Shown here piece by piece: positions 18,565 to 40,136 of a stretch of 40,136 nt of DNA. The notes beneath the pieces are model-generated. The model was not told the DNA's origin and ran no database searches. It saw nothing but the letters and a program-made list of their open reading frames with translations. Source of the stretch: an uncultured Arenicella sp. GTDB lineage: Bacteria > Pseudomonadota > Gammaproteobacteria > Arenicellales > Arenicellaceae. The stretch spans positions 1-40,136 of the forward strand of contig CALJWL010000014.1 of the NCBI GenBank assembly GCA_937974565.1. The letters run 5' to 3'. The position numbers were made by a program, and so were the translations under genes. How positions within the stretch are numbered: the first letter of the stretch is position 1; the number at the start of each line of letters is the position of its first letter.

Positions 18565-18643
18565 TTAGTTTGAATAATAGTTTTTGCTAAACCTACGTGT
18601 AATCGTGATAACTTAATCTTGTTATTACTAGGAGAAGAAGCAA

Positions 18644-19981: not shown

Positions 19982-20112
19982 GTTTTTTAAGCTGGAAACG
20001 GCAATAATGTTTTTATGGTTTCACACATAAAAAACAATCGTTAGTTAACTTGGTTGGTTGCTGCGTTTAAGTAATAGAGGAGAGACTAGCTTTAGCTATT
20101 TCGTATTTTCTT

Positions 20113-20130
20113 ATCAGCTAATTAGATGAT
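20113..20130. promoter_or_regulatory. 18-bp near-perfect palindrome upstream of aldehyde dehydrogenase gene
   Basis: ATCAGCTAATTAGATGAT matches its own reverse complement at 16 of 18 positions. A copy differing at one base lies upstream of the TonB-receptor gene at 22731. This is a candidate operator for a dimeric regulator, with the LuxR-type protein encoded between the two sites as the first suspect. Confidence 0.65.
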
Positions 20131-20192
20131 GGTTGAATCAATTGCCAGTTTGCTAAGCTGTATTTAACGATTCAAATTTTATGGGAAAAAAA

Positions 20193-25075: not shown

Positions 25076-25113
25076 AAAGGTCGTTCAATATTTGTATATT
25101 GAGCGGCCTTTTT
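25076..25113 (+). terminator. Rho-independent terminator after the TonB-receptor gene
   Basis: A 16-bp stem runs from AAAGGTCGTTCAATAT to ATATTGAGCGGCCTTT, with a 4-base loop and two G-T pairs, followed by TTGCGTTTTT. It lies 85 bases after the receptor stop and separates it from the iac locus. Confidence 0.85.
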
Positions 25114-25263: not shown

Positions 25264-25740
25264 TTAACCTTCCTGTTCAAGGTTAGTAAACACCGTCTGA
25301 AGAAGTTCATTTAAATTGTCAGTTTTATCTTTATCTAATCCATCAAACGCTTGGTCAATGATTTTGGAGGTACTCTGAATCACCTCTTGGATAATATTGA
25401 GTCCTATAGTCGTTATATTTACCATTGTAACTCGTCCATCCCTTGAACTCTGATTTACTTCAACCCAGCCTCGCTCTTCCATTTTGTAGACCGACTTAGT
25501 AATTGTCGGTAATCGGCCAACCGCGTGTTTCGCTACCTCGGTCATGCTTAACCTGCCATTCTCTCTTAAGATCAAGCCAATTCGCCATGAAGTAATATTC
25601 ATACCTACCTTCTTTAACTCAACCTCCATAGCTTGTGTGTAGCGGCTTCCTAGGCGCATCACCCAATAAAAAGGGTACTCACGGAACTCAAAATTTTCAC
25701 TTGCGGGCTTGTACCTATTAAGGCTTTTTGTTTTGTTCAA
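25264..25740 (-). CDS. iacR: MarR-family regulator, probable IAA-responsive repressor IacR
   Basis: This is a 158-residue MarR-type winged-helix protein. WRIGLILRENGRLSMTEVAK, then LPTITKSVYKMEERGWVEVN and SSRDGRVTMVNITTIG, give the recognition helix and wing, flanked by dimerisation helices. The gene is divergent from iacH. In studied iac clusters IacR is a MarR repressor released by indole-3-acetate, and the same position and family here support that name. The start is a TTG preceded by GGTGA; the next in-frame Met is inside the conserved N-terminal helix (VMRLGSRY), so the TTG is favoured. Inverted repeats in the gap to iacH are its likely binding sites. Confidence 0.82.
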   Translation of the reverse strand: MNKTKSLNRYKPASENFEFREYPFYWVMRLGSRYTQAMEVELKKVGMNITSWRIGLILRENGRLSMTEVAKHAVGRLPTITKSVYKMEERGWVEVNQSSRDGRVTMVNITTIGLNIIQEVIQSTSKIIDQAFDGLDKDKTDNLNELLQTVFTNLEQEG

Positions 25741-25858: not shown

Positions 25859-25923
25859 TTAATTACTTGAAAAGTGTAATTAATTATTTGATAATAATTA
25901 CATGAAAATTCAAGTAATTATTA
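25859..25923. promoter_or_regulatory. Two AT-rich palindromes between iacR and iacH, candidate IacR operators
   Basis: Site 1 is TTAATTAC, a 9-base spacer and GTAATTAA (25859-25883). Site 2 is TAATAATTAC, a 12-base spacer and GTAATTATTA (25892-25923), ending six bases before the iacH ATG. Both contain the TTAC...GTAA dyad. In addition TTACTTGAA (25863) and its complement TTCAAGTAA (25909) face each other across the pair. Such placement suits MarR-type repression of the divergent promoters. Confidence 0.6.
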
Positions 25924-25929: not shown

Positions 25930-27054
25930 ATGTTTGTGAGAAAACTCACTGAAAACGCCTCGGGCTTAACGTTTGCTGTTAAAGATAATATCGACGCAGC
26001 GGGGACAGCTTCTGGAATGGGCTGCGCAGCGTTTAAAGATGCTAATAATGCAATACGCTCGGCTAAGGTTGTACAGCGCCTACTTGATTCTAACTTCCAG
26101 TTGCTCGGCAAACTTGCGATGCATGAACTTGCGTTTGGCATGACTGGGATAAACAATTATTCAGGCACGCCAATCAATACGCTCTATCCTGATTTAATTC
26201 CCGGTGGTTCATCAAGTGGCTGCGCTGCAGCCGTTGCCTCCGGTGACGTAGATATTGCTATCGGAACCGACACCGGCGGCTCTATACGCTTACCAGCCGC
26301 TTGTTGTGGTGTGGTGGGCTTCAAACCGACTTATGGTCGTTTAAGCCGAGAGGGCGTCTCACCAAAGAAATCAAGCCTTGATTGTGTCGGCCCGTTTGCT
26401 CGCAACGTTACGTTGATTGAGCAAGCCATGCATGCAATGGATGAGTCATTTACTCCATCTAGGCAGCCTCGATCTATAACTCTTGGTGTATTAGACATCG
26501 AATGCGAAACATCAATTTTCGCTGAGTTTGAGTTAGCGTTACAAGGCATTGCTTCTTTAAGCACGGTGCGTATCAATAAAATTTCACTTGCGCACATGGA
26601 CAATGCGTTTGCCGCTGGAATGGTTCTTATCGCAAGTGAAGCCTTCGCTGAATTCGGAGGCTTACCCAAAGATCAGCTAGGAAGCGATATAGCGCAGCGT
26701 TTGCAAGCAGCGTCTGCTATTGGCGCCTCTCAGATTGAGCAAGCTCAGCGCACACAAGAAACGTTTAAACGCGAGGTTTCTGAGGCCTTATTAGGTGTCG
26801 ACGCGATTCTCTTGCCAACATTGCCATCTAAGCCGCTTTCACTAGATGCCGCTAAAAACGGCGCGATTGATCTGGCCTCCAGTTCGCTGGTTCGGCCATT
26901 TAATGTTTCCGGTCATCCTGCGATTACTTTGCCTGTTGCCTCTGTGAACCCATTTAGCGTTCAGTTAGTTGGCGCGTTAAATGAAGACGAAAAACTCTGC
27001 GCTATTGCGAAACAGATAGAAAGCCTGCTGCCAAAGCCGGTTTATCCAAATTAG
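25930..27054 (+). CDS. iacH: Amidase-signature family protein, IacH-like
   Basis: This amidase-signature enzyme is the first gene of the long catabolic unit. The Ser-Ser-Lys triad can be placed as K18 (AVKDNID), S94 (PGGSSSG) and nucleophile S118 (GTDTGGSIR), with the 24-residue spacing between the serines kept. It has 374 residues and begins almost at the lysine motif, so the usual N-terminal helices of 450-500-residue members are missing. A stop codon five codons upstream prevents extension, and the ATG lacks a ribosome site. In iac clusters the amidase IacH has an unsettled role. Indole-3-acetamide hydrolysis, giving IAA, is an alternative that sequence cannot exclude. Confidence 0.8.
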   Translation: MFVRKLTENASGLTFAVKDNIDAAGTASGMGCAAFKDANNAIRSAKVVQRLLDSNFQLLGKLAMHELAFGMTGINNYSGTPINTLYPDLIPGGSSSGCAAAVASGDVDIAIGTDTGGSIRLPAACCGVVGFKPTYGRLSREGVSPKKSSLDCVGPFARNVTLIEQAMHAMDESFTPSRQPRSITLGVLDIECETSIFAEFELALQGIASLSTVRINKISLAHMDNAFAAGMVLIASEAFAEFGGLPKDQLGSDIAQRLQAASAIGASQIEQAQRTQETFKREVSEALLGVDAILLPTLPSKPLSLDAAKNGAIDLASSSLVRPFNVSGHPAITLPVASVNPFSVQLVGALNEDEKLCAIAKQIESLLPKPVYPN

Positions 27055-27096
27055 ATATCTTGAAACTTTGTCATACAGGCCATTAAGAGAACACAT

Positions 27097-28245
27097 ATGA
27101 ATCATCAGCTAGACAAATCACTTTGGGGCGGCGAAGCCGTTTTTGATCAGTTACTGTCGGACATACGCTCTCGTAGAAAAGAAATTGAAGACTTGCGTCA
27201 TATTCCGCAAGACATAATTGAGCGCTTCAAAGAAATAGGTATCTATCGAGCATTCGTACCGAAAGAATTTGGCGGTGACGCCCGTTCACCAAGTGAATTT
27301 TTACAAGTGATTGAAGCAATTTCAGCCGCAGACGGTTCCTCTGGGTGGGTAGCAAGTTTCGGTATGAGCCCCGCGTATCTTGCAGGCCTACCCATGTCAT
27401 CTATTGAAAAAATATGGGGCGACAGCCCAGACGTCGTTTTTGCTGGAGGAGCGTTTCCTCCACAAGACGTGAAAATTGTTGACGGTGGCTATTGTGTAAG
27501 TGGTCGTTGGCCTTTTGGTAGTGGCTGTATGGGAGCGTCATTGATTGGCGTGTCGATCAAGATTGACGGCAAAGGTCCATTACCACAAATGGCTGTGTTA
27601 CCAGCCGAGAAAGTATTCATCGATGAATCTACGTGGCAGGTTCATGGGATGGCTTCAAGTGGCAGCTACGATATGGTTGTAGACGATGTGTTTGTTCCTA
27701 ATGAGTGGGTGTTTGAACGAGGTGGTAAACAGACTTTAGACTCGCCATTTTTTAGATACCCATCGCTCTCGATCTCAGCACAAGTCTTGTCGGTGACCGC
27801 TCTGGGTGTGGCACGAGAAGCCATTGATATGGTTGTTGCTATGTCAATAAGCCAAAAGACGGTTACAGGAGCCCCCAGAATTGGAGACCGTCATTACGCT
27901 CAGATTGAGCTAGCGAAAGCTGAAGCAAAGGTTCAATCTTCACGGGCTTTCTTTTATCAAACAACGGAAGACGCATGGCAGACCGTACTAGAAGGCGGCA
28001 AGCCGTCGCGCGAACAGTCCAGCATGTTGCGCCTGGCGACCACAAATTTGACCAGAGAGTGTGCCGAGGCTACCCAAATAGCGTATCGCTTAGCGGGCAT
28101 GTCTAGCACCTATTATGACAGTCATCTTTCTCGCTGTTACCGCGACGTAAACATGCCTACCCAACACGCTCTAATGGGTGAGGTTACGTATCAAAACGCC
28201 GGCGCCATGATGTTTGGTAATGACCCGTTTCCTGGCTATATATAA
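27097..28245 (+). CDS. iacA: Flavin-dependent indole-3-acetate monooxygenase IacA (acyl-CoA dehydrogenase fold)
   Basis: This 382-residue enzyme has the acyl-CoA dehydrogenase fold used by two-component (group D) flavin monooxygenases such as HsaA and HpaB-like proteins. GIYRAFVPKEFGGDARSPSE and AISAADGSSGWVASFG mark the N-terminal half, VSGRWPFGSGCMGASL the central beta part, and a helical C-terminal half ends with YRDVNMPTQHALMGEVTYQN. In characterised iac systems IacA starts the pathway by oxidising the indole ring of IAA, using reduced flavin from IacG. A MarR-fused flavin reductase in the same run of genes supports this. It starts 42 bases after iacH. An acyl-CoA dehydrogenase function is unlikely given the neighbours. 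Confidence 0.85.
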   Translation: MNHQLDKSLWGGEAVFDQLLSDIRSRRKEIEDLRHIPQDIIERFKEIGIYRAFVPKEFGGDARSPSEFLQVIEAISAADGSSGWVASFGMSPAYLAGLPMSSIEKIWGDSPDVVFAGGAFPPQDVKIVDGGYCVSGRWPFGSGCMGASLIGVSIKIDGKGPLPQMAVLPAEKVFIDESTWQVHGMASSGSYDMVVDDVFVPNEWVFERGGKQTLDSPFFRYPSLSISAQVLSVTALGVAREAIDMVVAMSISQKTVTGAPRIGDRHYAQIELAKAEAKVQSSRAFFYQTTEDAWQTVLEGGKPSREQSSMLRLATTNLTRECAEATQIAYRLAGMSSTYYDSHLSRCYRDVNMPTQHALMGEVTYQNAGAMMFGNDPFPGYI

Positions 28246-28340
28246 ATTAAAAATTTTTCCTTATCGCTATCCCAACTATTTTCGAAATACAGCAATAAGC
28301 GGCATTAACTAAATAATTAAGATTATCAGAGGATTTAATA

Positions 28341-28700
28341 ATGAATGTAGAAAGCAAACACAGAGTTTTATTTTGTATCGGCGTAAGTCAAAACTTCATG
28401 GATTCAACGCAAGAAGTCATGGGAGAGGTTTGGGTTGCTTTCCAGGCGATGATTAAGGGCATCAGTGATTTGCCGGGCGTTGAAGTACTCGGTGTTCTCG
28501 ACGATGACCGTATCCAGGTAGGCCCATCAGAAAACGCTCCTTGGACCGCTTACATTATGGCGGATGTGCCTGACTATGAAAGCGTTGTCGCGGGTTGTGA
28601 TTTCTTTCGTAACACCCCCGTTGGTGACGGTACTTACAAACTTTGGAAGTTCATGAAGGTTGAAGCGCGCATTGGCCGCGGCTTAGAAGTGCCCGAATAA
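28341..28700 (+). CDS. iacB: IacB-like small protein of the IAA degradation cluster
   Basis: This is a 119-residue soluble protein with no catalytic motif that I can name. The sequence VEVLGVLDDDRIQVGPSENA, PWTAYIMADVPDYESVVAGC and RNTPVGDGTYKLWKFMKVEA fits what I remember of IacB, a small dimeric alpha/beta-barrel-like protein found only with iac genes. Its exact step is not clear; genetic work links it to the cluster. The ATG has AGAGGA upstream. The end of the gene has been duplicated by 17 bases. The name rests on position (between iacA and iacI) and similarity recalled from the family. Confidence 0.75.
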   Translation: MNVESKHRVLFCIGVSQNFMDSTQEVMGEVWVAFQAMIKGISDLPGVEVLGVLDDDRIQVGPSENAPWTAYIMADVPDYESVVAGCDFFRNTPVGDGTYKLWKFMKVEARIGRGLEVPE

Positions 28701-28717
28701 TAGAAGTGCCCGAATAA
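28684..28717 (+). repeat. 17-bp tandem duplication across the iacB stop codon
   Basis: TAGAAGTGCCCGAATAA occurs twice back to back. The first copy carries the last codons and TAA of iacB; the second is non-coding in that frame. Confidence 0.9.
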
Positions 28718-28752
28718 TAAAACCATTCTCTGACCATAACTGGAAACACATA

Positions 28753-29292
28753 ATGTCAAATAGTCTCTCCACACAAGACGCCATTTTACTGCGTTTGGAA
28801 GCCCTCGAAGCAGAAAAAAAAGTTCGCCATTGTATGTCTCGATATATGTTGCTATGCGATGAGCTCGGTGTTGACACCCAGTTAGATGAGCTAACTAAAC
28901 TATTTGCTGATGATGCTGTATGGCAGGGCAAAGGCAAGCGCTACGCTAAAACGTTTGGCCGATACGAAGGTCGTGACGCGATTGGCGACATGTTTGCTAG
29001 CTACACCAAGCCACCAGCACACTTTTCCATGAATGCACACTTTCTTTGTAATGAGTTGATTCACATTGACGATACCAACACGTCAGCTAAAGGCACGTGG
29101 ATGTTGATTCAACCGTCCAGCTTTAGCACTGGAAAATCTCAATTGAGCTGCGCGCGCATAAGCGCTGAGTTTGTGCTGGTAGATGGTGCTTGGTTAATGC
29201 AGGTGTTTACCACTGAAAATATATTTAGCCGCCCGATGGCTAACTCGTGGGATAACTCTGCGAGCTTGGGCGTTCCGACAAAGAACTCTTAA
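28753..29292 (+). CDS. iacI: SnoaL/NTF2-like protein, IacI
   Basis: This 179-residue protein has an NTF2/SnoaL-like fold: an N-terminal helix (LRLEALEAEKKVRHCMSRYM), then LDELTKLFADDAVWQGKGK, GRYEGRDAIGDMFASYT, SMNAHFLCNELIHIDDT and a beta-sheet. The family includes ring-hydroxylating dioxygenase beta-like and polyketide-cyclase-like enzymes. In iac clusters a protein of this kind sits between iacB and iacC and is called IacI; its reaction is not settled. The closely spaced genes on both sides place it in the same transcript. It could be an isomerase or dehydratase of an unstable indole intermediate, or a helper protein. Confidence 0.75.
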   Translation: MSNSLSTQDAILLRLEALEAEKKVRHCMSRYMLLCDELGVDTQLDELTKLFADDAVWQGKGKRYAKTFGRYEGRDAIGDMFASYTKPPAHFSMNAHFLCNELIHIDDTNTSAKGTWMLIQPSSFSTGKSQLSCARISAEFVLVDGAWLMQVFTTENIFSRPMANSWDNSASLGVPTKNS

Positions 29293-29310
29293 TTTGGAGG
29301 ATTTTATATT

Positions 29311-30588
29311 ATGAATAAACCAATTGATAAAGAAGCGATCGCACAGCGTGCCGCTGACCTAGTACTCGAAGACCGAGTACATAAAGATTTGTATTCTGAC
29401 CCTGATATCTTCGAAGAAGAGCTTGATAAAGTATTTAACAATACCTGGGTATGGGTCGCGCATGAATCTGAAGTGTCTGGTAAGAACAACTATAAGACGG
29501 CGAAAATAGGCCGCCAACCGGTGATTGTTGTTCGCGAACGCAAAGGTGGCATCAATGTGCTGCTAAATCGTTGTCGTCATCGTGGTGCAACCGTTTGCGA
29601 AGGTAACGCTGGTAAAACCAAAGCGTTCACGTGCCCTTATCACGGCTGGGGTTATGGCTTAGACGGTTCTTTGAGAGCACTCCCTAAGCCTGAAGAATAC
29701 GAAAACCTAATGGATAAGTCTGAGTTTGGCCTAGTTAAATTACGCCATGAGTCTTATCAGGGAATGATCTTTGCAACCCTTAGTGATGACATTGAGCCCC
29801 TCGAAGATTTCTTAGGCGGCGCAAAGAAGTGGATAGACCTATTCATGAAGCAGGGCGCAGGCTACCCATTGAAGACCTTAGGCGAACAACGTTTTCGCTT
29901 TCCGGGTAACTGGAAGATTCAGTTGGAAAATACTACCGATGCCTACCACTTTCCGATTGTGCATAAGTCATTCTTATCGTCAATGGACGAAACATCGGCC
30001 GAAATTTTTGATTTTCTAGATGGCGATGGATTTGTTGAAGATCTAGGCAATGGCCACAGTGTCATGGTGATGATTCCTGAGTTAGTCGACTTAGAAGAAA
30101 AGTTGGATGATCCAATACCAGAACGTTTTGCAGATCTAGCTACCGAGTTAGCAGCTGAAGGTCATTCAGATGAGGAAGTTCGTCGTTTAGTACGGGCAGT
30201 TGGTGGCAGTGGCTTTAACCTGAATTTGTTCCCAAATATTTCTTTTTCTATGGCGTTTTTCAGAAACCTGGTTCCGATTAGTGCGCAAGAAACCGAGATT
30301 CATCACATTGCTATCGGCGGTGAAGGCGCGCCCGACGCTTACAACCAAAAACGCATGCGCTTGCACGAACATTTTCAAGGTCCAATGGGCTTTGGCACAC
30401 CGGATGACGGCGAAGCTTGGGAGCGTGTACAACGTGGCTCGATGGCCGGCGACGATGGGTGGATTATGGTGAACCGCGGCATGAGTCGAATGAAAACATC
30501 GGCGGATGGCAACCCCCAAGGCGCCGTGTGTTCGGAGACGGGTATGCGCGCTGCGTACCAGCAATATAAAAAGCAAATGGCGAGTTAG
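29311..30588 (+). CDS. iacC: Rieske non-heme iron oxygenase, large subunit IacC
   Basis: This is the alpha subunit of a ring-hydroxylating dioxygenase, 425 residues. The Rieske 2Fe-2S ligands are C88 and H90 (NRCRHRGA) and C108 and H111 (CPYHGWGYG). The bridging Asp and iron-site histidines are D210, H213 and H218 in ENTTDAYHFPIVH, with the third ligand at D365 or D366 (TPDDGEAW). In known iac systems IacC with IacD hydroxylates the oxidised indole intermediate (dioxindole-3-acetate) on the way to catechol, with electrons from IacF. The small subunit follows 25 bases later and the reductase two genes on. A strong GGAGG precedes the ATG. Confidence 0.9.
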   Translation: MNKPIDKEAIAQRAADLVLEDRVHKDLYSDPDIFEEELDKVFNNTWVWVAHESEVSGKNNYKTAKIGRQPVIVVRERKGGINVLLNRCRHRGATVCEGNAGKTKAFTCPYHGWGYGLDGSLRALPKPEEYENLMDKSEFGLVKLRHESYQGMIFATLSDDIEPLEDFLGGAKKWIDLFMKQGAGYPLKTLGEQRFRFPGNWKIQLENTTDAYHFPIVHKSFLSSMDETSAEIFDFLDGDGFVEDLGNGHSVMVMIPELVDLEEKLDDPIPERFADLATELAAEGHSDEEVRRLVRAVGGSGFNLNLFPNISFSMAFFRNLVPISAQETEIHHIAIGGEGAPDAYNQKRMRLHEHFQGPMGFGTPDDGEAWERVQRGSMAGDDGWIMVNRGMSRMKTSADGNPQGAVCSETGMRAAYQQYKKQMAS

Positions 30589-30613
30589 CCTCATTTTTTA
30601 GAGACGATTATCG

Positions 30614-31096
30614 ATGACTATAAATAACCAATTATTTAATCAAGTTTCTGAATTTTTGAGTACAGAAGCTGACATGCTCGACCATAGAGAATACCAAGAC
30701 TGGCTAAAGTTGTGGCAGCCTGACGGCGTTTATATTGTTCCTGTAGATGTGAACGCAGATGACTATAAGAACACGCTTAACGTGGCCTATGATGATGAAC
30801 ATATGCGTCAACTGCGAGTCGAACGCTTAGAGGGCGGTGAAGCCGTTTCGACAGCTGTAGCTATGCCAACAGTACGTTCAATATCGGCTCTGCGCATCGT
30901 CAGTGCCTCTGACGATGAAGTGACCGTTCGCTGTTCTTACATGCTGTACGAAAACAAAGAGGGCGATTTAAGGCCTTACCCAGCTAAAGCAGAGTTTGTC
31001 TTAGTGCCGAATAGCGACTCATTTTTGCTAAAGAAAAAACTGGTCAAGTTAATGCGCGCAAGCCAATACCTTGCCACCATCAGCTACATTTTCTAG
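30614..31096 (+). CDS. iacD: Aromatic-ring-hydroxylating dioxygenase small subunit IacD
   Basis: This is the beta subunit of the Rieske oxygenase, 160 residues, with the NTF2-like fold of that family. LFNQVSEFLSTEADMLDHRE and YQDWLKLWQPDGVYIVPVDV are the usual opening, with the 'E...LD...Y..WL.L...D..Y..P' pattern. A sheet with EVTVRCSYMLYENK and AKAEFVLVP follows. The subunit is structural and pairs with IacC, probably as alpha3beta3. It ends 11 bases before iacE. Confidence 0.88.
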   Translation: MTINNQLFNQVSEFLSTEADMLDHREYQDWLKLWQPDGVYIVPVDVNADDYKNTLNVAYDDEHMRQLRVERLEGGEAVSTAVAMPTVRSISALRIVSASDDEVTVRCSYMLYENKEGDLRPYPAKAEFVLVPNSDSFLLKKKLVKLMRASQYLATISYIF

Positions 31097-31107
31097 GGGA
31101 TAATCTA

Positions 31108-31851
31108 ATGAGTAGGACAGTATTAATTACTGGCGCCACCAAAGGGCTTGGAACAGCCATGGCAGAGCGCTTCTTTAATGATGGCTATCAAATTGTTATT
31201 AGCGGAACTAGCGAGGATGTTTCAAAACAGCTTGCCAGCAAGCTTGACCCTAGTGGTGAATATGTAGTTGGCATGGAGCTAAATGTTAGAAAAAAAGCGG
31301 ACTTCGAAGCTGGCCTTGGACTCGCCATCAGTAAATTTGGTAAGTGCGATGTGTTGATTAATAACGCGGCAATGACGCCTACAACATCGGTAATGGATAT
31401 TTCAGCCGAAGAGTTTGATGATGTGATTAGCACTAATCTTCGTGGCACCTTTTTTGGTTGTCAGGTGTTTGGACAGTATTTTGCCGATCAAAAATACGGG
31501 CGCATTGTTAACCTAACCTCGCTTGCCGGTCAGATGGGGGGAACCGCTTCAGGCGCTCATTATGCCGCGTCAAAAGGCGGCATCATTACCTTAACCAAAG
31601 TCTTTGCAAGAGCATTAGCTGCCGACGGTGTGACCGTTAACGCAGTGGCTCCTGGGCCGGTAGACATGCCGTCAACGCGAGAAAAAGTACCTGCGGAAAA
31701 GCTTGAGCAAATCATTCAAACAATGATTCCCACCAAAAAAATGAGTTCAGCGGGGTTTATCGCCGATATGGTAGCTGCACTCGCGAGTGATGATGCAGGT
31801 TGCACAACCGGTGCGTGCTGGGATTCCAACGGCGGCATATTTATGCGTTAA
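31108..31851 (+). CDS. iacE: Short-chain dehydrogenase/reductase IacE
   Basis: This is a classical SDR of 247 residues. The NAD(P) loop is TGATKGLG (8-15), NNAA is at 85-88, and the catalytic S138 (LTSLAG), Y152 and K156 (YAASK) are followed by the PGPVDMPST segment. In iac work, IacE acts after IacA and is needed to obtain dioxindole-3-acetate from the first oxidation product. The same order of genes here supports that role, though SDR substrate cannot be read from sequence. GGGGA before the ATG is a good ribosome site. Confidence 0.87.
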   Translation: MSRTVLITGATKGLGTAMAERFFNDGYQIVISGTSEDVSKQLASKLDPSGEYVVGMELNVRKKADFEAGLGLAISKFGKCDVLINNAAMTPTTSVMDISAEEFDDVISTNLRGTFFGCQVFGQYFADQKYGRIVNLTSLAGQMGGTASGAHYAASKGGIITLTKVFARALAADGVTVNAVAPGPVDMPSTREKVPAEKLEQIIQTMIPTKKMSSAGFIADMVAALASDDAGCTTGACWDSNGGIFMR

Positions 31852-31887
31852 CAGGCCTTTAAAAAACGCAAAGCCCGTAGCTAAAGC

Positions 31888-31926
31888 CAGTAGTTGTAGT
31901 CAGTAGTTGTAGTCAGTAGTTGTAGC
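31888..31926 (+). repeat. Three tandem copies of a 13-bp unit between iacE and iacF
   Basis: CAGTAGTTGTAGT is repeated three times, the last copy ending in C. The array sits in the 91-base iacE-iacF gap, starting 37 bases after the iacE stop. Copy number may vary between strains. Confidence 0.92.
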
Positions 31927-31942
31927 CAATGATTAAAATATT

Positions 31943-32899
31943 ATGTTAGAAGAAAACACCATCGATGTACTGATCAAAAGCCGCCAAGACCAAGGTAATG
32001 GTGTGGCTGTTTTAGAGTTGGTATCTGCCAGCGGCAAAGACTTACCTGGTTTTGATGCCGGTGCCCATATCGACGTTCATATCAACTCAGAGTTCACACG
32101 CCAGTACTCATTGAGTAATGCGCCAAGCGGTACTGAGTCAGCTCAATGTTATCGAATTGGTGTTCTCAATGACCCAGACTCTCGAGGCGGGTCAGTTGCT
32201 CTCTTTAATGAATTTTATGAAGGTAAAGAGATTCAAGTTAGCGCCCCGAAAAATTTTTTTGAAGTTGCTGATCATAGTAATTCAGTTATTTTAATTGCCG
32301 GTGGTATCGGCGTAACGCCGATTCTTTCCATGGCGCATCAGTTAAAGAAGGCTGGACGGCCATTTGAAATTCACTACTGCTTAAATAAATTGAGTAATGG
32401 TGCTTTTGTCGATGAGCTTAGCCAAGAGTTTCCTGATCAGTTAACAATCCACTGCAGTGCCGACAAAAAGTTCGACCCCAGTGAAACCTTCTCTAATCGC
32501 GGTGATGCGCATATCTACGTGTGTGGTCCCAGCGGGTTTATGGACTGGGTGATCGAGTCGGCTAAGGAGCAGGGCATAGCAAACGACAATATCCATTTCG
32601 AGTACTTCAATGTCGAGGTGGAACTGTCTGGCGATTCAATAGAGGTGCATTGCGTCGATAGCGATAAAACCGTGATGGTTGGCCCCGACGAGAGTATTGC
32701 TGCCGCCTTATCTAAAGCGGGTATAAAGGTCGATGTGTCATGCGAACAAGGAGTTTGCGGAACCTGTATTACCGATGTGCTTGAAGGTATTCCTGATCAT
32801 CGAGACCAATTTCTAACCGATGAAGAAAAAGAAGACAACGACCAAATGGCTTTGTGCTGTTCTAGAGCTAAAGGCTCAAAGCTGGTTATCGAAATCTAA
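31943..32899 (+). CDS. iacF: NAD(P)H:ferredoxin-type oxidoreductase IacF (flavin + 2Fe-2S)
   Basis: This is the electron-transfer partner of the IacCD oxygenase, 318 residues, of the phthalate dioxygenase reductase type. The flavin-binding motif is RQYSL (53-57), the nucleotide-binding parts are GGIGVTP (120-126) and CGPSGFM (194-200), and the C-terminal plant-type 2Fe-2S ferredoxin domain has C267, C272, C275 and C305. It takes electrons from NAD(P)H through flavin to the Rieske centre. The fused ferredoxin means no separate ferredoxin gene is needed, and none is present. It is separated from iacE by the 13-bp repeat array. Confidence 0.9.
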   Translation: MLEENTIDVLIKSRQDQGNGVAVLELVSASGKDLPGFDAGAHIDVHINSEFTRQYSLSNAPSGTESAQCYRIGVLNDPDSRGGSVALFNEFYEGKEIQVSAPKNFFEVADHSNSVILIAGGIGVTPILSMAHQLKKAGRPFEIHYCLNKLSNGAFVDELSQEFPDQLTIHCSADKKFDPSETFSNRGDAHIYVCGPSGFMDWVIESAKEQGIANDNIHFEYFNVEVELSGDSIEVHCVDSDKTVMVGPDESIAAALSKAGIKVDVSCEQGVCGTCITDVLEGIPDHRDQFLTDEEKEDNDQMALCCSRAKGSKLVIEI

Positions 32900-32995
32900 T
32901 ATTTGATAACTGGCAATAAAACTAATTTTGTTGATATGTCATTTCACGAAAATGATCTTTCAGCAACCCAATAATATTTTTAAAGAGTAAGAACA

Positions 32996-33067
32996 ATGTC
33001 AAGCATTCAAGTGAACATGATCGAAGGGCAATCTGAGAAATTACCTGCACACAAAGCCGGGTGTTGA
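32996..33067 (+). CDS. Possible 23-codon micro-ORF or gene remnant upstream of iacG
   Basis: An ATG with AGAG about eight bases before it opens MSSIQVNMIEGQSEK and LPAHKAGC, then stops. The first residues resemble the N-terminus of 4-oxalocrotonate tautomerase-like proteins ('IQV.MIEG.S.EQK'), so this may be a truncated tautomerase gene. Equally, it may be a chance or leader peptide. It fills most of the 217-base gap between iacF and iacG, the widest gap in the unit. Confidence 0.3.
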   Translation: MSSIQVNMIEGQSEKLPAHKAGC

Positions 33068-33116
33068 ACTCACATTTAAAGAAAAAACTACCTGTAAACG
33101 AGATATGGAGACAAGC

Positions 33117-34079
33117 ATGAGCACTACCGATAACAAACAAGAATTCGATATTAAGGACTTTCGTCGTGCGCTTGGGCAATTCCCGACTGGTGTGACGATT
33201 ATTACTACTCAAGATGAAAAAGGTGAACCTATTGGCGTTACTGCCAGTAGTTTCAATTCGGTATCTATTTCGCCTGCACTGGTTCTATGGAGTGTTGATA
33301 AAAGCGCATTCAGTGCATCAATCATGGAAAACGCCTCTCATTTTGCAGTGAATATCCTAAGCAAATCTCAAATAGATATGTCGAATCGCTTTGCAGGTAG
33401 AGGTGAAGATAAATTCGGCGGTATTGACTACTCTGAGAGCCCACATGGTTCGCCACTTTTTAAAGGCTGTTCGGCGCAGTTAGAGTGCAAAACGTGGAAT
33501 GTGTATGAGGGCGGCGACCATCTAATTATTGTTGGTGAAGTACTTGATTATCGCCATGATGAGTCGCAGCCTCCGTTGGTTTTTGCCTGCGGAAGTTACG
33601 CAGTCTCGATGCAACACCCAGCAACAACTGCTAGCAACACCACAAAAGTTCCAGGCGATGGCGTCTTGGGCGACTACATGCTGTATCTATTACGCGTTGC
33701 CTACAGCAATTGTTCAGCACAGTTGTATCCTGAATTAATGGCCAAACACGGAATTGCGCCTGAAGAATGGCGCGCGCTTACTTTGTTAAGTGATACTGGT
33801 AAAGCTGAGTCTGCGTACTTAGCGAAGATGATTGGTCAGCCGACCGACGTATTCAATTCAACAGTCGAACGTATGCAAAGTAAAGGCTACTTAGATTTAT
33901 TGCCTGAAGGCCAAGTTCAGTTAACCGAGCAAGGCGGTGAAATGTCAGCAAAGTTATTTGAAATTGCTAAATCTCAAGAAGAAAGTTTGCTGTCGGGTTT
34001 GAACGAACAGCAGCGTAATGACCTAAAAGCGAGCCTAAAGAAAGTCGCTGGAATGGGTAGTGAGGCGAGTGCCAGCTAA
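33117..34079 (+). CDS. iacG: Flavin reductase IacG with C-terminal MarR-like domain
   Basis: This is the NAD(P)H:flavin reductase that should supply reduced flavin to IacA. From the chosen start it has 320 residues. The N-terminal ~165 residues are the flavin-reductase fold ([53 protein letters not shown]). About 150 residues follow with a winged-helix MarR-like pattern ([40 protein letters not shown]). The C1 reductase of p-hydroxyphenylacetate hydroxylase has the same architecture, and there the MarR-like part is autoinhibitory and relieved by substrate. ATG 33117 is preferred to 33105 because GGAG lies six bases before it. The stop overlaps the next start by one base. Confidence 0.87.
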
Positions 34080-35428
34080 TGAAAGTAACTCCTCAAATAC
34101 CTCTGGCCGAGGCTGCTGAATTAGTTAATTCTGGCGACACAATGATTGTTGGCGGCTTTGGAATGACAGGCAACCCAGTGCACTTATTGCATGCAATTGC
34201 TGAAACTGATGTTCGTGACCTTACCTACGTTGGTAACAACGTAGGCGAAGCGGGCTTGGGCGGTGGAAGGTTGCTGCGTAACAAACAAATTTCGAAAGCA
34301 ATTGGCTCGTTCTTTACCTCAAACCCTGAAGCCGTGGCGGCGGCTCAGAGTGGCGATATAGACGTAGAGCTATTGCCGCAAGGCACATTAGCCGAAGCTA
34401 TTCGCGCGGGAGGCACAGGCATTGGCGGGTTTTATACCCCAACCTCGGCCAATACGCCTCTCGCAGATAATCGCGAAGTTAGAACATTTGATGACACCGA
34501 TATGGTTTTCATACCGGCGATTAAAGGCGATGTGTCACTCATACGAGCGTGGAAAGCCGATACCGCAGGTAATTTACAGTATCGAATGACTGAAAGTAAT
34601 TTCAACCCAGCAGCGGCGATGGCGTCTAAACTCGTTATTGCTGAAGTTGAAGAAATAGTTCCTGTCGGCGAGCTTGATCCCAACCTGATTCATACTCAGG
34701 GCTGTTTTGTCGATTATTTAGTACAAGCCACGCTCGAGCTTGATGATCTGGGCTCATCCGCTTCGGTTAAATCCAGTGATAAAAAAGTAAGCGAAACCCG
34801 CATGAATATGGCTAAAGCCGCCTTAGCTGAACTCAAACGTGGTGACTTGGTGAACTTAGGTATTGGTATCCCGACCTTAGTTGCTGATTTGATTAGTGAC
34901 AAAGACGGCATTATTTTGCATACCGAAAATGGAATGTTAGGCGTAGGCCCTGAGCCGGAAGAGGGTGGTGCTATGGACTACCCTGTGAACGCAGGCAAGA
35001 TACCGGTAACCGCTCTCGAAGGTTCTAGCTACTTTGATAGCCCAACGTCGTTCGGCATGATCCGTGGAGGGCATGTTGACGTAGCCATTATGGGAGGCCT
35101 TCAGGTAGATCAAAAAGGTAATTTAGCAAACTGGGCTGTACCCGGAAAACCCTTATTAGGAGTAGGCGGTGCGATGGATTTAGCGACTGGCGCTCATCGT
35201 TTAATCGTCACCATGTTGCATACTGACAAAGCGGGCAATTCAAAAGTGCTACCTGAATGCACATTACCACTAACCGCTGTAGGCGTGGTCGATGTACTAG
35301 TTACTGATCGTGCTGTGTTCCACTTTAAAGATGGAAACATGGTACTAACTCAACTCTTGTCTGGCTTTACGCTGGCCGACGTTGAAGAGTCAACCGAAGC
35401 TGAGTTTACGGTGGCCTTAAGTGAGTGA
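34079..35428 (+). CDS. catIJ: 3-oxoadipate CoA-transferase, fused alpha and beta subunits
   Basis: This enzyme moves CoA from succinyl-CoA to 3-oxoadipate, giving 3-oxoadipyl-CoA. Both subunits of the family I transferase lie in one 449-residue chain. Residues 1-220 are the A part (GGFGMTGNP 25-33, [31 protein letters not shown]). A linker at about 222-240 joins the B part ([15 protein letters not shown], catalytic E283 in [26 protein letters not shown]). Most PcaIJ/CatIJ enzymes are two proteins. The ATG overlaps the iacG stop by one base, coupling the iac and cat halves. Acetoacetate transferase (ScoAB) is the alternative in isolation, but catBCAD and pcaF around it decide the matter. Confidence 0.88.
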
Positions 35429-36545
35429 TAACAGTTTAAAGATCGAGAGAGTTGAGACGTTTGTATTAGATGTCCCAACCACTCGCCCTCATGTTTTAGC
35501 TATGACGACAATGAATCACCAAAGTATGGTGATTCTAAGGCTCACTTTTTCTGATGGTACTCAAGGCATTGGAGAAGCGACAACCATTGGCGGCTTAAGT
35601 TATGGTGATGAAAGTCCAGAGGGTATTCAGCTCACCCTTGATAACTACATAACGCCGATGCTGTTAAAAAATGAGTATAAGAGCGTTGGCGCGACCATGG
35701 CGTTTATTAATCGCAATATTGTTGGCAATCGCTTTGCCAAAACAGCGATTGAAATAGCTTTGTACGACGCATTAGGTCATCGTTTAGGCGTGCCTGTTTC
35801 TGAGTTATTAGGCGGCCGAGTCGTTGATCGTTTATCAGTGCTATGGGTCCTCGCAAGTGGCAATTTAGATTCCGATATAGATGAAGCGCATAAGATGATT
35901 GAGTCTCGCCGACACAATGTCTTTAAAATCAAAATAGGTAAACGCAGCGTTGAGGAAGATGTCGCTCATGTAGCCGCGGTTAAAAAAGCAATTGGCGACA
36001 CCGGTCGAGTTCAAGTTGATGTAAATCAAGCATGGACTCGTTCTCAAGCAAATCGAGCTGCCCCAATGCTGGCTGATGCTGGCATTGACTTAATCGAACA
36101 ACCGCTTGCATTCAATGATATTGAAGGTGCTCAACATTTGGTTAATCAAGGCGTTATCCCAATTATGTTAGATGAAAGCGTGCAAGGACCGAAGGTCGCG
36201 CTTGATCTGGTTCGCGCAAAAGCAGCCGACATTTACGCAATAAAAATACTTCAAGCAGGCGGGCTTACTGAAGCACAAAAAGTAATCTCATTCGCTCAAA
36301 CTTCAGGCGCTGCTCTTTATGGCGGCACCATGCTGGAATCGCCAGTATGCACTATTGCGTCCGCTCAACTGTTCAGCACCTATGAGCAATTTGAATGGGG
36401 CACTGAGCTGTTTTCACCATTATTGCAAAACGACAGTTTTATTAACGAAACACTAGACTATTCAGACTTTCAATTAACCGTGCCCAATACACCGGGCTTA
36501 GGTATTTCATTGAATCAAGAAAAGGTCGATTTTTATAAACGCTAA
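35421..36545 (+). CDS. catB: Muconate cycloisomerase CatB
   Basis: This enolase-superfamily enzyme converts cis,cis-muconate to muconolactone. It has 374 residues, as expected. The catalytic KIK motif is K169/K171, the metal ligands are D200 (DVNQAW), E226 (LIEQPL) and D251 (LDES), and the second-site lysine is K275. The N-terminal capping domain carries THRP-like [10 protein letters not shown] and the loop [11 protein letters not shown]. The start is a GTG overlapping the catIJ stop by eight bases. Chloromuconate cycloisomerase is closely related, but the context is the plain catechol pathway. Confidence 0.92.
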
Positions 36546-36614
36546 TCTTGAGATCCAACGTTAACACTTCGAATAACGTTAAACATAAGAATAGAGACAA
36601 AGAGGAAACTACCC

Positions 36615-36905
36615 ATGCTGTTCAAAGTAGAAATGGACGTAAACGTACCGCAAAACATTGACCCCAATGAGTTCGAGGCGACCAAAGCGAAAGAAAAGAA
36701 GTACGCCGAAGAGCTGCAAAAAAGTGGTAAGTGGCGTCACTTGTGGCGCATCGTTGGTCAATATAAAAATATAAGTATTTTTGATGTTGAGAATTCGGAA
36801 GAACTGCACAACATATTAATGGCCTTACCGCTTTATCCATATATGACTGTGCGCGTTGAAGCCTTATGTCGCCATCCGTCGTCCATTCATGAAGACGATC
36901 GATAA
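36615..36905 (+). CDS. catC: Muconolactone delta-isomerase CatC
   Basis: This enzyme isomerises muconolactone to 3-oxoadipate enol-lactone. It is exactly the usual length (96 residues) and follows the family from end to end: MLFKVEMDVNVP, FEATKAKEKKYAEELQKSGK, WRHLWRIVGQYKNISIFDVE and LPLYPYMTVRVEALCRHPSS. AGAGGA lies before the ATG. It sits between catB and catA. Confidence 0.95.
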   Translation: MLFKVEMDVNVPQNIDPNEFEATKAKEKKYAEELQKSGKWRHLWRIVGQYKNISIFDVENSEELHNILMALPLYPYMTVRVEALCRHPSSIHEDDR

Positions 36906-36940
36906 TTAAATAAGAAAACCAATCAAAGGAGAAATACGCT

Positions 36941-37816
36941 ATGAGCATCACTCAAAGTGCCGAAATACAAAGCTTGTTAGACGCCATTGCCGGAGTTAAA
37001 AACGATAAAGGCGACCCTCGAACTAAAGAAATTGTGCGCCGAATAGTTGGCGATTTATTTGCCACGATTGAAGACCTCAATATTACTGAAACAGAATTTT
37101 GGAAAGCACTTCACTTTATGCAAGCTGCCGCACCAGAATACGTATTGATCGCCCCGGGCTTAGGGTTTGATCATTTTCATGATGTACTCATGGATGCAGC
37201 CGATGCTGAAGCCGGAAAAACAGGTGGTACACCACGAACCATTGAAGGCCCGTTGTATGTTGAAAACGCGCCAGTCGCTGACAATGAAATCACCTTAGTC
37301 ACCGACGAAGAGGGCACACCAATGCATTTAAGTGGGGTGGTGAAAGATCTTGACGGCAAGCCAATCAAGGGCGCTGTTGTTGAAGTTTGGCATGCTAGCA
37401 AAGACGGTGGTTATTCGCACTTTGATCCTTCGTTGAAAGAATTTGCGTTCCGCGGAGGTATTCGCACGGGTGATACTGGTAGTTATACCGCTCACAGCAT
37501 CATGCCATCAGGCTATGCCGCCCCTCCAGGTGGCTCAACCGAAGGCCTTTTAGATCAACTCGGTCGTCATGGTAATCGCCCAGCACACATACATTTCTTT
37601 GTGTCCGCTCCTGGCTATAAGCATTTAACAACCCAAATCAATATCGCTGGCGATCCGTTTACGTATGACGACTTTGCATTTGGCACACGTGACGAACTAG
37701 TAGCTGAATCAAATTCAGTTGACGGAGTCGAACACGTGAAGTTTGACCTTATTATGGTTAAAGCAAGCGATGCTGATGATGAGCAACGCGCTGAACGCCC
37801 TCGAATGGTTGGGTAA
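36941..37816 (+). CDS. catA: Catechol 1,2-dioxygenase CatA
   Basis: This intradiol dioxygenase cleaves catechol to cis,cis-muconate with Fe(III). It has 291 residues. The iron ligands are Y158 (GGYSH), Y192 (PSGYAAP), H216 and H218 (RPAHIHFF); an N-terminal helical dimerisation domain covers about 1-100, and GPLYVENAP opens the catalytic domain. The order and spacing of the ligands match Acinetobacter and Pseudomonas CatA. A clear AAGGAG ribosome site precedes the ATG. It links the IAA pathway, which ends at catechol, to the beta-ketoadipate route. Confidence 0.94.
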   Translation: MSITQSAEIQSLLDAIAGVKNDKGDPRTKEIVRRIVGDLFATIEDLNITETEFWKALHFMQAAAPEYVLIAPGLGFDHFHDVLMDAADAEAGKTGGTPRTIEGPLYVENAPVADNEITLVTDEEGTPMHLSGVVKDLDGKPIKGAVVEVWHASKDGGYSHFDPSLKEFAFRGGIRTGDTGSYTAHSIMPSGYAAPPGGSTEGLLDQLGRHGNRPAHIHFFVSAPGYKHLTTQINIAGDPFTYDDFAFGTRDELVAESNSVDGVEHVKFDLIMVKASDADDEQRAERPRMVG

Positions 37817-37819
37817 ATT

Positions 37820-38614
37820 ATGTCTGCTGATGTCAAATATCTGGTCGCGCGTGATGGTTGTAAAATCGCGTACGAGTATCGTGTGATCGACCCAAGTTTC
37901 AAAACAGTGGTACTAGCGGGTTCGCTCGGAACCACTTTTGAAATGTGGAATCCACAAATAGATGCCTTAAGTGAGCGCTTTAACGTGGTGCGTTACGACG
38001 CACGCGGCCACGGGCGCTCAGATGTCTTTCCAGGCGCTTATTCAATTGATCGTCTGGGCTCAGATGTTATTGATTTGATTGACGCCTTAGACCTGAAAGC
38101 AGTCCACTTTTGTGGGCTGTCAATTGGCGGCATACTAGGGCAATGGTTAGCCTTGCGGCACCCTGAGCGTGTAGACCGCTTGGTACTCGCGAACACAGCG
38201 GCATTTATAGGTTCACCTGAGTTCTGGCAGCAACGCATTGAGTTAATCAATAAGGATGGTGTTGCCTCAATTTGGGAAGGCATTCGTGATCGATGGTTTA
38301 CCACTGAGTTTATAAGCTCAAATACCGAGCTAATGAATCGGCTGCAAACCATGTTCAAATCCATTGATACTCATGGTTATGCCGCGTGTTGTGCCGCTAT
38401 TCGAGATATGGACTTACGTCCTTTCGCGCATATGAATGAACTCGCCACATTGATCATTGCTGGCAGCGAAGACATGGCGACCCCGCCTGAGCAGTCAGAA
38501 GAGTTAGATAAGGCTTATTCAAATAGCCAACTCTTGGTACTCAAAGCCGGGCACCTATCCAACCTTGAACGCAAAGACGAATTTAACCAGGGTTTATTGA
38601 ATTTCTTAGGTTGA
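37820..38614 (+). CDS. pcaD: 3-oxoadipate enol-lactonase (PcaD/CatD)
   Basis: This alpha/beta hydrolase of 264 residues hydrolyses the enol-lactone to 3-oxoadipate. The triad is S101 (CGLSIGG), D218 (AGSEDMATPP) and H245 (KAGHLSNLE), with the oxyanion region near AGSLGTTFEMW and RYDARGHGRSD, both typical of PcaD. It begins three bases after the catA stop. Either pcaD or catD is a fair symbol; sequence alone does not separate them. Confidence 0.92.
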   Translation: MSADVKYLVARDGCKIAYEYRVIDPSFKTVVLAGSLGTTFEMWNPQIDALSERFNVVRYDARGHGRSDVFPGAYSIDRLGSDVIDLIDALDLKAVHFCGLSIGGILGQWLALRHPERVDRLVLANTAAFIGSPEFWQQRIELINKDGVASIWEGIRDRWFTTEFISSNTELMNRLQTMFKSIDTHGYAACCAAIRDMDLRPFAHMNELATLIIAGSEDMATPPEQSEELDKAYSNSQLLVLKAGHLSNLERKDEFNQGLLNFLG

Positions 38615-38684
38615 AACAGACTAAGCACACTACATGTCGTCGCTTGTATGGTGGCGAATAGACACTCCACACAAGAAACTTATG

Positions 38685-39890
38685 ATGACTGACGCTTTTA
38701 TTTGTGACGCTATTCGCACGCCTATCGGCCGATACGGCGGTTCTTTATCAAGCATTCGAGCCGACGACCTTGGCGCTATACCATTGACTGAGCTTATGGC
38801 TCGCAACCCATCTGTCGATTGGACTCAAGTTGATGACGTAATCTTCGGTTGTGCTAACCAAGCAGGTGAAGACAACCGAAATGTCGCTAGAATGTCGACC
38901 CTATTGGCCGGTTTACCTAACAATGTACCGGCTTCTACAATTAATCGCTTGTGTGGCTCTGGTTTAGATGCAATGAGCATGGCTGCAAGAACAATCAAAA
39001 CCCATGAGGCCAGTTTGGTTATTGCCGGTGGTGTTGAGTCAATGTCTCGTGCGCCTTTGGTAATGGGAAAATCGTCTTCAGCGTTTGGCCGTTCGCAAAC
39101 CCTATATGACACAACAATGGGTTGGCGCTTTATAAACAAAAAACTAAGAGCGCAATACGGCGTAGACACTATGCCCGAAACTGCCGAAAACGTTGCAGAG
39201 CAGTTCAACATAAGCCGTGAAGACCAAGACCTATTTGCCTTAAACAGTCAACTAAAGGCGGCGGCGGCGCAAAGCAATGGCTTTTTTGAAGAAGAAATTG
39301 CGTCGGTTGAGATTAACCAACGTAAAAAGGACCCAATCATATTTAACCAAGACGAACACATTCGAGCCAACACTAATCTAGAAGGCCTGGCGAAATTACC
39401 AACACCTTTTCGTGATAATGGAACAGTTACAGCTGGCAACGCATCTGGCTTAAACGATGGCGCATGCGCCATATTGCTCGCATCAGAGGCAGCGATTACA
39501 AAACACGGTTTAACACCCAAAGCAAAAGTGTTAGCAACGACTGTAGTAGGCCTCGAGCCTAGAATCATGGGGTTCGGACCAGCACCTGCCGTTAACAAGG
39601 TGCTTGCGCTCACGGGTTTAAACCTAGACCAAATAGACGTTATAGAACTCAACGAAGCGTTTGCTGCTCAAGGCTTAGCCGTTATAAGAGAACTCGGTTT
39701 GGCCGATGACGACCATCGAGTTAACCCAAATGGAGGAGCAATCGCATTGGGGCATCCTTTAGGGATGTCTGGCGCACGTTTAGTAACAACCGCTGTTAAT
39801 CAGTTAAACAGAATCCAAGGTCGTTACGCGCTTTGTACAATGTGCATTGGAGTAGGGCAAGGAATTGCCACTCTCATAGAGAGGGTATAA
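38685..39890 (+). CDS. pcaF: 3-oxoadipyl-CoA thiolase (PcaF/CatF)
   Basis: This thiolase cleaves 3-oxoadipyl-CoA to succinyl-CoA and acetyl-CoA, the last step of the pathway. C90 (NRLCGSG), H357 ([11 protein letters not shown]) and C387 (CIGVGQG) are the catalytic residues. The start at the second of two adjacent ATGs gives [20 protein letters not shown] and 401 residues, the usual PcaF start and length. The frame is open from 38634, but that part is unlike the family. It is the last gene of the run; an IS66-type end follows after about 105 bases. Confidence 0.93.
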
Positions 39891-39995: not shown

Positions 39996-40136
39996 GTAAG
40001 CGTCAAGTAACCGACACCCTAGCGCATAATGAAGATCACGATTATGTTCCTGACTTTAATCAGGAGCAAATGATGATCAGACGAAATAAAGCACAGTGGT
40101 TAGATTTAATTAGTGAACAGGCGAGCAGTGGCTTGA
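39996..40136 (+). mobile_element. Left end of an IS66-family insertion sequence (cut by window edge)
   Basis: GTAAGCGTCAAGTAACCGAC fits the GTAAGCG terminal repeat typical of IS66 elements. About 70 bases later an ORF begins that resembles the first accessory gene of this family. The other end and the 8-bp target duplication lie outside the window. Confidence 0.65.
40070..40136 (+). CDS. IS66-type accessory protein TnpA, N-terminal fragment
   Basis: Twenty-two codons are visible, opening MMIRRNKAQWLDLISEQASS before the window ends. The pattern 'RR....W..LI..Q..SGL' is the usual start of IS66 TnpA-like accessory proteins, which carry a helix-turn-helix. AGGAG stands four to seven bases before the paired ATGs. 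Whether the element is complete cannot be seen. Confidence 0.6.
   Translation, partial: MMIRRNKAQWLDLISEQASSGL

Follow-up and report, generated by a model that had tools for sequence, protein, structure and literature searches.

How is the breakdown of indole-3-acetate (IAA) connected to central metabolism in an uncultured Arenicella sp., and which regulator controls the connected genes? The question is raised by a 40136 bp stretch of DNA, the window of this analysis, which is an entire contig (C14) of a 3.37 Mb genome with 97.87% completeness. A previous reading based on the letters of this DNA alone (the sequence-only reading) described a single 15-gene unit leading from IAA through catechol. 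The comparisons presented here indicate that the locus is probably an iac-like cluster joined at its downstream end to a complete lower pathway, made up of catechol ortho-cleavage and the beta-ketoadipate steps, acquired by this genome and expressed as one IacR-controlled transcript. We infer the enzyme functions from protein families, and the IacR binding, the single transcript and the acquisition are likewise inferred.

Fifteen open reading frames (ORFs), all on the forward strand, occupy positions 25930-39890 in the order iacH-A-B-I-C-D-E-F-G and then catIJ-catB-catC-catA-pcaD-pcaF. The positions, strand and order given in the sequence-only reading were exact, and profile searches agreed with its gene names. 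The overlaps of 1 base between iacG and catIJ and of 8 bases between catIJ and catB were also correct, as was the statement that every step after catechol is encoded behind the iac genes: catA, catB, catC, pcaD, a coenzyme A (CoA)-transferase gene and a thiolase gene are all present and co-directional.

For the comparison of the iac genes, 79 iac loci of other genomes were used. They were chosen by IacC, stand at the top of a list of at least 587 relatives and do not represent a random sample. None of the iac proteins reached an equivalog cut-off in the NCBIfam matches shown, and their names rest on family folds and on the position and identity of homologues. The iacH gene (25930..27054) encodes a putative amidase (PF01425) with homologues of 27-49% identity in 74 of the 79 loci, seven of these at 27-30%. 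The iacA product (27097..28245), a putative flavin-dependent monooxygenase with the acyl-CoA-dehydrogenase fold, has 41-63% identity in 73/79 loci. The product of iacB (28341..28700) has no Pfam or NCBIfam match, shares 42-71% identity with the matching ORF in 63/79 loci, and has one plasmid homologue annotated as 'IacB protein'. IacI (28753..29292) is SnoaL-like (PF13577; 33-58% in 74/79 loci). IacC (29311..30588), the putative large subunit of a Rieske dioxygenase, shows 60-66% identity to five plasmid IacC proteins and 62-75% in all 79 loci, as expected from their choice by IacC. Family profiles and homologues in other iac loci point to a dioxygenase small subunit for iacD (30614..31096), a short-chain dehydrogenase/reductase for iacE (31108..31851) and a ferredoxin reductase for iacF (31943..32899).

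The last gene of this part, iacG (33105..34079), encodes a putative two-domain flavin reductase of the C1-HPAH type with a C-terminal MarR-like domain. Its best NCBIfam match is NF045919 (below the cut-off), and PDB entry 5zc2 matches over residues 10-316 (E 1.5e-64), with a weak match to MarR_2. The long two-domain form has a full-length match in 26/79 loci. The C-terminal half of IacG in addition shows weak similarity to structure 7kfo, the IadR of Variovorax, which suggests that flavin reduction may be gated by substrate.

According to the available part of PMC9613470, iacA, iacB and iacI are the markers that separate iac-like from iad-like loci. All three are present in the run, with homologues in most other iac loci, and iacC, iacD, iacE, iacF and an adjoining gene for a MarR-type IacR, by which an iac-like cluster is further recognised, are present as well. 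Thus, as judged from protein families, the first part of the run belongs to the iac-like clusters for IAA catabolism, with the Acinetobacter/Enterobacter gene order and predicted enzyme functions.

As for the lower pathway, five of the six genes encode proteins scoring over the cut-offs of their NCBIfam profiles. These are catIJ (34079..35428), which carries both subunits of 3-oxoadipate CoA-transferase in one 449-aa frame (TIGR02429 and TIGR02428), catB (35421..36545; muconate cycloisomerase, TIGR02534), catC (36615..36905; muconolactone isomerase, TIGR03221), pcaD (37820..38614; 3-oxoadipate enol-lactonase, TIGR02427) and pcaF (38634..39890; 3-oxoadipyl-CoA thiolase, TIGR02430). TIGR02439, catechol 1,2-dioxygenase, is by far the best match of the catA product (36941..37816).

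The candidate regulator is encoded by iacR, a MarR-family gene (PF01047) located on the minus strand at 25264..25740 and divergent from the run. Its best PDB match is 7KUA (E 6.3e-38), followed by 7L19 and 7L1I. In the accessible text of PMC9613470, 7KUA is the IacR of Pseudomonas putida 1290, and the two other codes belong to the same paper. The IacR proteins of P. putida and Enterobacter soli are described as repressors, with relief by IAA in P. putida (PMC11753152, PMC9613470, as excerpted), and a 24-bp site is bound by the related IadR in Variovorax (PMC9613470, same excerpt).

Upstream of iacH, a sigma-70 promoter was predicted at 25867..25895 on the forward strand (TTGAAA-17-GATAAT, 10/12 consensus, from a scan whose matches are at chance level). 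Its -10 element is overlapped by a near-perfect palindrome, TAATAATTACATGAA-AA-TTCAAGTAATTATTA, at 25892..25923, which ends 6 bp 5' of the iacH start codon and is the predicted IacR operator. When 3 mismatches at most are tolerated, the window contains the 24-bp core of the palindrome a single time, at 0.01 occurrences expected. The pattern was then matched against the whole of each other iac locus, and a best match counted as lying near the run start if it fell between 400 bp before this start and 30 bp past it; two of the 79 loci were dropped since the run start lay too near the end of the DNA. The best or equal-best match fell near the run start in 59 of the remaining 77 loci. With ties weighted, the count was 47.2/77 vs 5.7-11.0 for 12 shuffled palindromes of equal make-up. 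A matrix built from the 59 sites, with the window left out, gave the window site (at 25896) 32.3 bits on one strand and 31.6 bits on the other. The adjacent half-site at 25861 reached 14.7 bits, all other positions of the window reached 12.8 bits at most, and no comparable site was found before iacF, iacG or catIJ.

Because the best or equal-best match lies just upstream of the iac run in 59/77 loci and the window contains no comparable site elsewhere, a single IacR switch is the best reading of the window, with both the operator and its binding by IacR being predictions. The proposal that the catechol branch stands under IAA control is supported in this respect: one predicted operator precedes the run, none comparable precedes the cat genes, and the genome has no close CatR homologue. 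The loss of induction that was part of the same proposal is considered below. The predicted box was not found in the excerpted accounts of PMC9613470, PMC11753152 and PMC11676955. Standing before most of the iac runs examined, it would be a simple tool for charting, in many bacteria, which cat, transport and amine genes nearby are controlled by IacR.

The catechol branch is commonly accompanied by a LysR-type regulator, CatR or CatM; this is usual, not universal. No regulator of this type was found among the 36 ORFs scanned in the window, and a CatR-type LysR query taken from one of the compared loci (L024) gave four matches in the genome, at 26-32% identity, none of them a close homologue. 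The claim that no catR lies in or near the run is thus borne out for the window, in which it could be judged on the upstream side only, because the contig ends 246 bp after pcaF. In addition, catA is single-copy in the genome and CatIJ has one match at E<=1e-40. IacC is the sole Rieske alpha subunit over the Pfam cut-off, with a second candidate at 21.7 bits below it, and the Rieske search found no benzoate- or anthranilate-type dioxygenase route to catechol in the genome.

The downstream end of the contig consists of a repeat (39996..40136, forward strand, 141 bp) that starts with GTAAGCG 105 bp past the pcaF stop codon and within which the contig terminates; from this terminus we take it to be the end of an IS66-like element. 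A 22-aa frame at the contig end has no NCBIfam match. The last 141 bp of the window are identical to the first 141 bp of another contig, C1; the copy on a third contig, C39, has 2 mismatches, and further, longer copies with 83-99% identity lie on other contigs. After a degenerate copy of the repeat, C1 carries genes for an esterase, pterin dehydratase, exonuclease, DUF481 protein, mechanosensitive channel, radical-SAM/TRAM protein, isocitrate lyase and malate synthase, and there was no regulator gene among the 8 ORFs scanned there, up to 10.9 kb. If C1 is the true neighbour of the window, the run therefore ends at pcaF. A CatR hidden past the contig end was considered and set aside, as C1 continues into core-type genes, though its adjacency to the window is unproven given the repeat on C39.

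The distribution of the genes among relatives was analyzed at several taxonomic levels. Genes for iacA (E<=1e-60) and catA (E<=1e-30) were each found in 1 of 21 genomes of the family and in 0 of the 20 others, with 13 of the 21 genomes, source genome included, at least 90% complete. At the order level, iacA occurs in 1/109 genomes (E<=1e-80), and tynB, a gene of the neighbouring module described below, likewise in 1/109. At the class level iacA was found in 2/369 genomes (E<=1e-100), the other carrier (G470) being nearest to Halomonas loci. No relatives of IacA were found in viral contigs. Eight genus relatives had a match, and six of them were compared at zntB, the gene next to the block; the stretches covered contained no tynB, AraC, MFS, aldehyde dehydrogenase, LuxR, iacA or catB match at E<=1e-10. 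A clean empty site was sought in the genus relatives and not found: zntB adjoins mscS in 5 of the 6, and none of them joins zntB to the C1 genes.

The family relatives show no match to iacA or catA, and neither a further catA nor another Rieske protein over the cut-off was found in the genome. Most likely, therefore, this genome took up the block as a dedicated pathway and did not inherit it within the order. The sequence-only reading had supposed a loss of independent catechol induction. Nothing is shown to have been lost, the supposition presupposes an unseen ancestor, and an acquired dedicated block fits better.

The continuity of the run was assessed from its gaps, of which the longest is that between iacF and iacG (205 bp); the iacA-iacB, iacE-iacF and catB-catC gaps measure 95, 91 and 69 bp and the others 52 bp or less. 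A scan of the window detected no terminator-like site on the forward strand in any intergenic gap of the run, at a somewhat over-chance yield of such sites (25 vs 16.2 expected). The description of the run as having no evident break holds for terminators, and the 205-bp gap qualifies it. This gap also suggests another arrangement, in which iacHABICDE, with or without iacF, would be controlled by IacR and a second unit comprising iacG, catIJ, catB, catC, catA, pcaD and pcaF, possibly beginning with iacF, would be transcribed from its own promoter and be expressible without IAA. The 1-base overlap with catIJ would place iacG in this second unit, and a promoter-like site with 9/12 consensus positions (31910-31939) stands directly before iacF. 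On the other hand, the iacF-iacG gap has no promoter-like site on the forward strand, the window has no comparable second operator-like site, and the genome lacks both a close CatR homologue and any other Rieske catechol source over the cut-off, which together make two separate units unlikely. The consensus promoter scan, with 19 sites vs 25.6 expected, was not above chance and was dropped as uninformative for or against internal starts.

Two features of the gaps were observed in addition. Tandem repeats of 13 bp (CAGTAGTTGTAGT-like) at 31872-31936 fill the iacE-iacF gap. An ATG-started frame of 23 codons (MSSIQVNMIEGQ...) lies at 32996-33067, inside the iacF-iacG gap, and DNA related to it was not found in the iac loci compared. 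A remnant gene in this gap was considered and rejected, the sole match being 16 bp long with E 0.087.

Several points weigh against a single acquired transcript under IacR. The 205-bp gap could contain a promoter or a processing site; because consensus scans are not above chance here, a strong internal promoter is still conceivable, and the site before iacF, itself weak and from the same chance-level scan, is a candidate. The operator pattern originated in the window and was only afterwards applied to the loci; many of these 77 loci are closely related to each other, 18 of them lack a best match at the run start, and the sites found carry 2-7 mismatches per 20 positions, the weaker ones 5-7. 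CatA scores below its equivalog cut-off (355 vs 392 bits). If the join of C14 and C1 is true, a LysR gene lies about 18 kb into C1 (17919-18746; 28% identity to CatR), and the join itself is deduced from an overlap inside a repeat that C39 shares. The Rieske search leaves out flavoprotein sources of catechol such as salicylate and phenol hydroxylases. As for the acquisition, the zntB loci of the relatives do include matches to a thiolase (35%, L164) and to a TonB receptor (30%, L167), and the absence of the genes in relatives could also reflect loss.

Under the preferred reading, that of one IacR-controlled unit, IacR produced from the divergent gene would occupy the palindrome at the iacH promoter, so that transcription is blocked. 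IAA would release IacR, and transcription would then proceed through all 15 genes. As published for this pathway, IAA would be oxidised to dioxindole-acetate by IacA together with IacG and by IacE together with IacB, and IacC and the rest of the Iac proteins would lead to catechol. CatA, CatB, CatC and PcaD would make 3-oxoadipate, from which CatIJ and PcaF would yield succinyl-CoA and acetyl-CoA. If this is true, catechol, a toxic intermediate, is produced and removed under one switch, and one acquired block confers the whole auxin-utilising ability on a bacterium from an order in which its sequenced relatives have no iac genes.

A gene-neighbourhood comparison over the 79 loci revealed the fused layout elsewhere. 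In the DNA compared, catA, catB or catC was found in 16 loci and was absent from 63; this count is a lower bound, because 31 of the 79 loci have less than 5 kb after the last iac gene. The cat genes are located downstream on the same strand in 9 of the 16 loci, upstream on the same strand in 3, downstream on the opposite strand in 2 and upstream on the opposite strand in 1, with a mixed arrangement in 1. In two of the nine (L035 and L091) a minus-strand LysR gene stands between iac and cat. The same-strand, uninterrupted arrangement is thus present in 7/79 loci and is not unique to the window: L048, L049, L057, L062 and L074 belong to Enterobacteriaceae, and L084 and L087 to sphingomonads. One gene of the MFS family lies between iacG and cat in L048, L049, L062 and L074; L057 has the same iacG-cat spacing as these loci and was called uninterrupted from gene positions only. 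In L084, a 265-aa ORF without a Pfam match lies between iacG and catB.

In the IacC tree (87 rows), the window groups (100/95) with a clade of 11 rows that includes Marinobacterium, Marinomonas, Pokkaliibacter, two Pseudomonas and two metagenome-assembled genomes (MAGs). The enteric fusions are part of a separate clade and the sphingomonad pair is placed elsewhere, the branch of L087 being long. In the sister clade of the window, no cat gene was detected next to iac, though 8 of its 11 loci have less than 5 kb downstream. Because the gene orders differ, a lower pathway was likely joined to iac on at least three separate occasions.

The closest published system is that of E. soli LF7, for which the available text of PMC8383072, relating Greenhut et al. 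2018, gives the order iacHABICDEFG-mfs-pcaIJD-catBCA and reports IacR control of the whole cluster and its upregulation by IAA. With cat and pca genes co-directional and directly downstream of iac, the window shows the layout of this type; it shares the iac order, the MarR-type IacR and the catechol-to-3-oxoadipyl-CoA genes with E. soli LF7 as described there. In that account, the E. soli cluster differs by an MFS gene between the two parts, separately named pcaI and pcaJ, the order pcaIJD-catBCA and the lack of pcaF in the named run, whereas the window has no MFS gene between the parts, a one-polypeptide CatIJ and the order catIJ-B-C-A-pcaD-pcaF. The statement that known iac pathways end at catechol is therefore right for the iac enzymes and wrong for the known clusters, as far as the LF7 account in PMC8383072 goes. 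Proximity of cat genes to iac is also stated in the accessible portions of PMC7225977 and PMC11676955.

A second counterpart is L087, from the Sphingomonadaceae MAG PASS1. It has an opposite-strand iacR upstream and iacHABICDE-G followed on one strand by cat and pca genes, pcaF and pcaD among them, with catB as the next gene after iacG. As in the window, an operator-like site (5 mismatches) stands before iacH. In contrast to the window, it has no iacF match, the order catB-C-A-I-J-pcaF-pcaD, separate catI and catJ and an IacC that is distant in the tree. With E. soli LF7 in print, as excerpted, and L087 carrying cat and pca genes with pcaF behind iac in another order, the implied novelty of the iac-cat fusion cannot be upheld. 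Details that go beyond the published fused cluster are pcaF in the run, the Deinococcus-like fused CatIJ, the adjoining amine-oxidation module and, perhaps, the predicted IacR box.

Other known systems are less similar. In Acinetobacter, the consulted section of PMC12502551 gives iacR-iacHABICDEFG; the iac order is the same and iacR is located upstream on the opposite strand in most Acinetobacter loci compared, whereas neighbouring cat/pca genes are on the opposite strand (L066 and L070; pca only in L058). Marinomonas MWYL1/NFXS50, according to PMC11373566, carries iacR, then transport and other genes, then iacABICDEFG, with iacH distant and cat elsewhere on the chromosome. It resembles the window as a marine gammaproteobacterial iac cluster and, in the same account, differs in the distant iacH and the non-adjoining cat genes. 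The IacC proteins of two other Marinomonas (L018 and L019) fall within the sister clade of the window.

The lower pathway was also compared with plasmid collections, which are a biased sample for judging gene origin. CatIJ shows 66-70% identity to nine plasmid records (eight Deinococcus, one Hymenobacter) and less than 60% to the other 539. Among the matches listed, the nearest proteobacterial plasmid proteins show 54-55% identity for CatA and CatB and 68-70% for PcaF. The lower pathway looks mosaic, because CatIJ is nearest to Deinococcus/Hymenobacter proteins while CatA and CatB are nearest to proteobacterial plasmid proteins. Matches to CatIJ were detected in 46 other genomes of the class; 16 of them span both halves, 15 with a stop codon and one (G472) without, a count that excludes short half matches in long frames (such as those of G120 and G320). 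Cross-phylum acquisition is a possible explanation for the single-chain CatIJ, which is unlike the split proteobacterial pair.

Upstream of the iac genes, family profiles identified genes for an AraC regulator, TynB, Rid, a DAO-fold flavin adenine dinucleotide (FAD) oxidoreductase, two MFS transporters and an aldehyde dehydrogenase (13276-21614), with a putative amine/amino-acid oxidation core at 14316-17267. The AraC protein has FeaR as its best profile, below the cut-off (FeaR/QhpR-like); TynB exceeds the cut-off of the 'tyramine oxidase subunit B' profile; the best solved relative of the oxidoreductase is the L-amino acid deaminase (LAAD) 5fjm (E 3.6e-75); and one of the two transporters is of the aromatic-acid type. 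This module may feed IAA formation. The 15 genes would then be an IAA-controlled run with a wider substrate, in which indole amines or tryptophan are fed into IAA and the 13.3-39.9 kb region is an island with two switches.

Such an island is suggested by the presence of TynB, Rid, the FAD oxidoreductase, AraC, the aromatic-acid transporter and the aldehyde dehydrogenase upstream of the run and by tynB being as rare in the order as iacA. Six plasmids are common to the best 40 of 42 iacA matches and the best 20 of 33 tynB matches, with the two genes 7-20 kb apart in five of them and about 68 kb apart in one. The triad stands beside iac in the chromosomal loci L024 and L055, and part of the oxidoreductase lies at the end of the DNA compared in L060 and L089. 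Against it, tynB is within the flank in just these 2 of the 79 iac loci, and between the module and the run lie genes for a LuxR protein and a TonB receptor as well as a terminator-like hairpin. The triad occurs without iac too, alone on plasmid stretches of Klebsiella, Pantoea and Falsirhodobacter and next to nicotine genes in Sphingobium. An indole-amine substrate is therefore no more than a lead, and the island with a wider substrate appears possible though doubtful.

A more inclusive version regards 13.3-39.9 kb as a horizontally assembled island leading from indole amine or tryptophan to central metabolism. TynB, Rid, the LAAD-like oxidase and aldehyde dehydrogenase would make IAA, and IacR would open a single 15-gene transcript, with a mosaic lower half containing the Deinococcus/Hymenobacter-type fused CoA-transferase. 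The same IacR box would mark iac runs in several Pseudomonadota families, and lower pathways would have joined iac at least three times, in this lineage, in Enterobacteriaceae and in sphingomonads. Taken as a whole, this combination is rather doubtful.

Some other features of the window were observed. The TonB-dependent receptor gene (22799-24991) is located upstream of iacR and is followed by the terminator-like hairpin at 25076-25111; TonB receptors near iac are also present in Novosphingobium (L012 and L082). On the minus strand, a 222-aa ORF (3411-4079) that seems to be a fragment carries a DDE transposase domain (PF01609) and lies beside the TamA/TamB genes.

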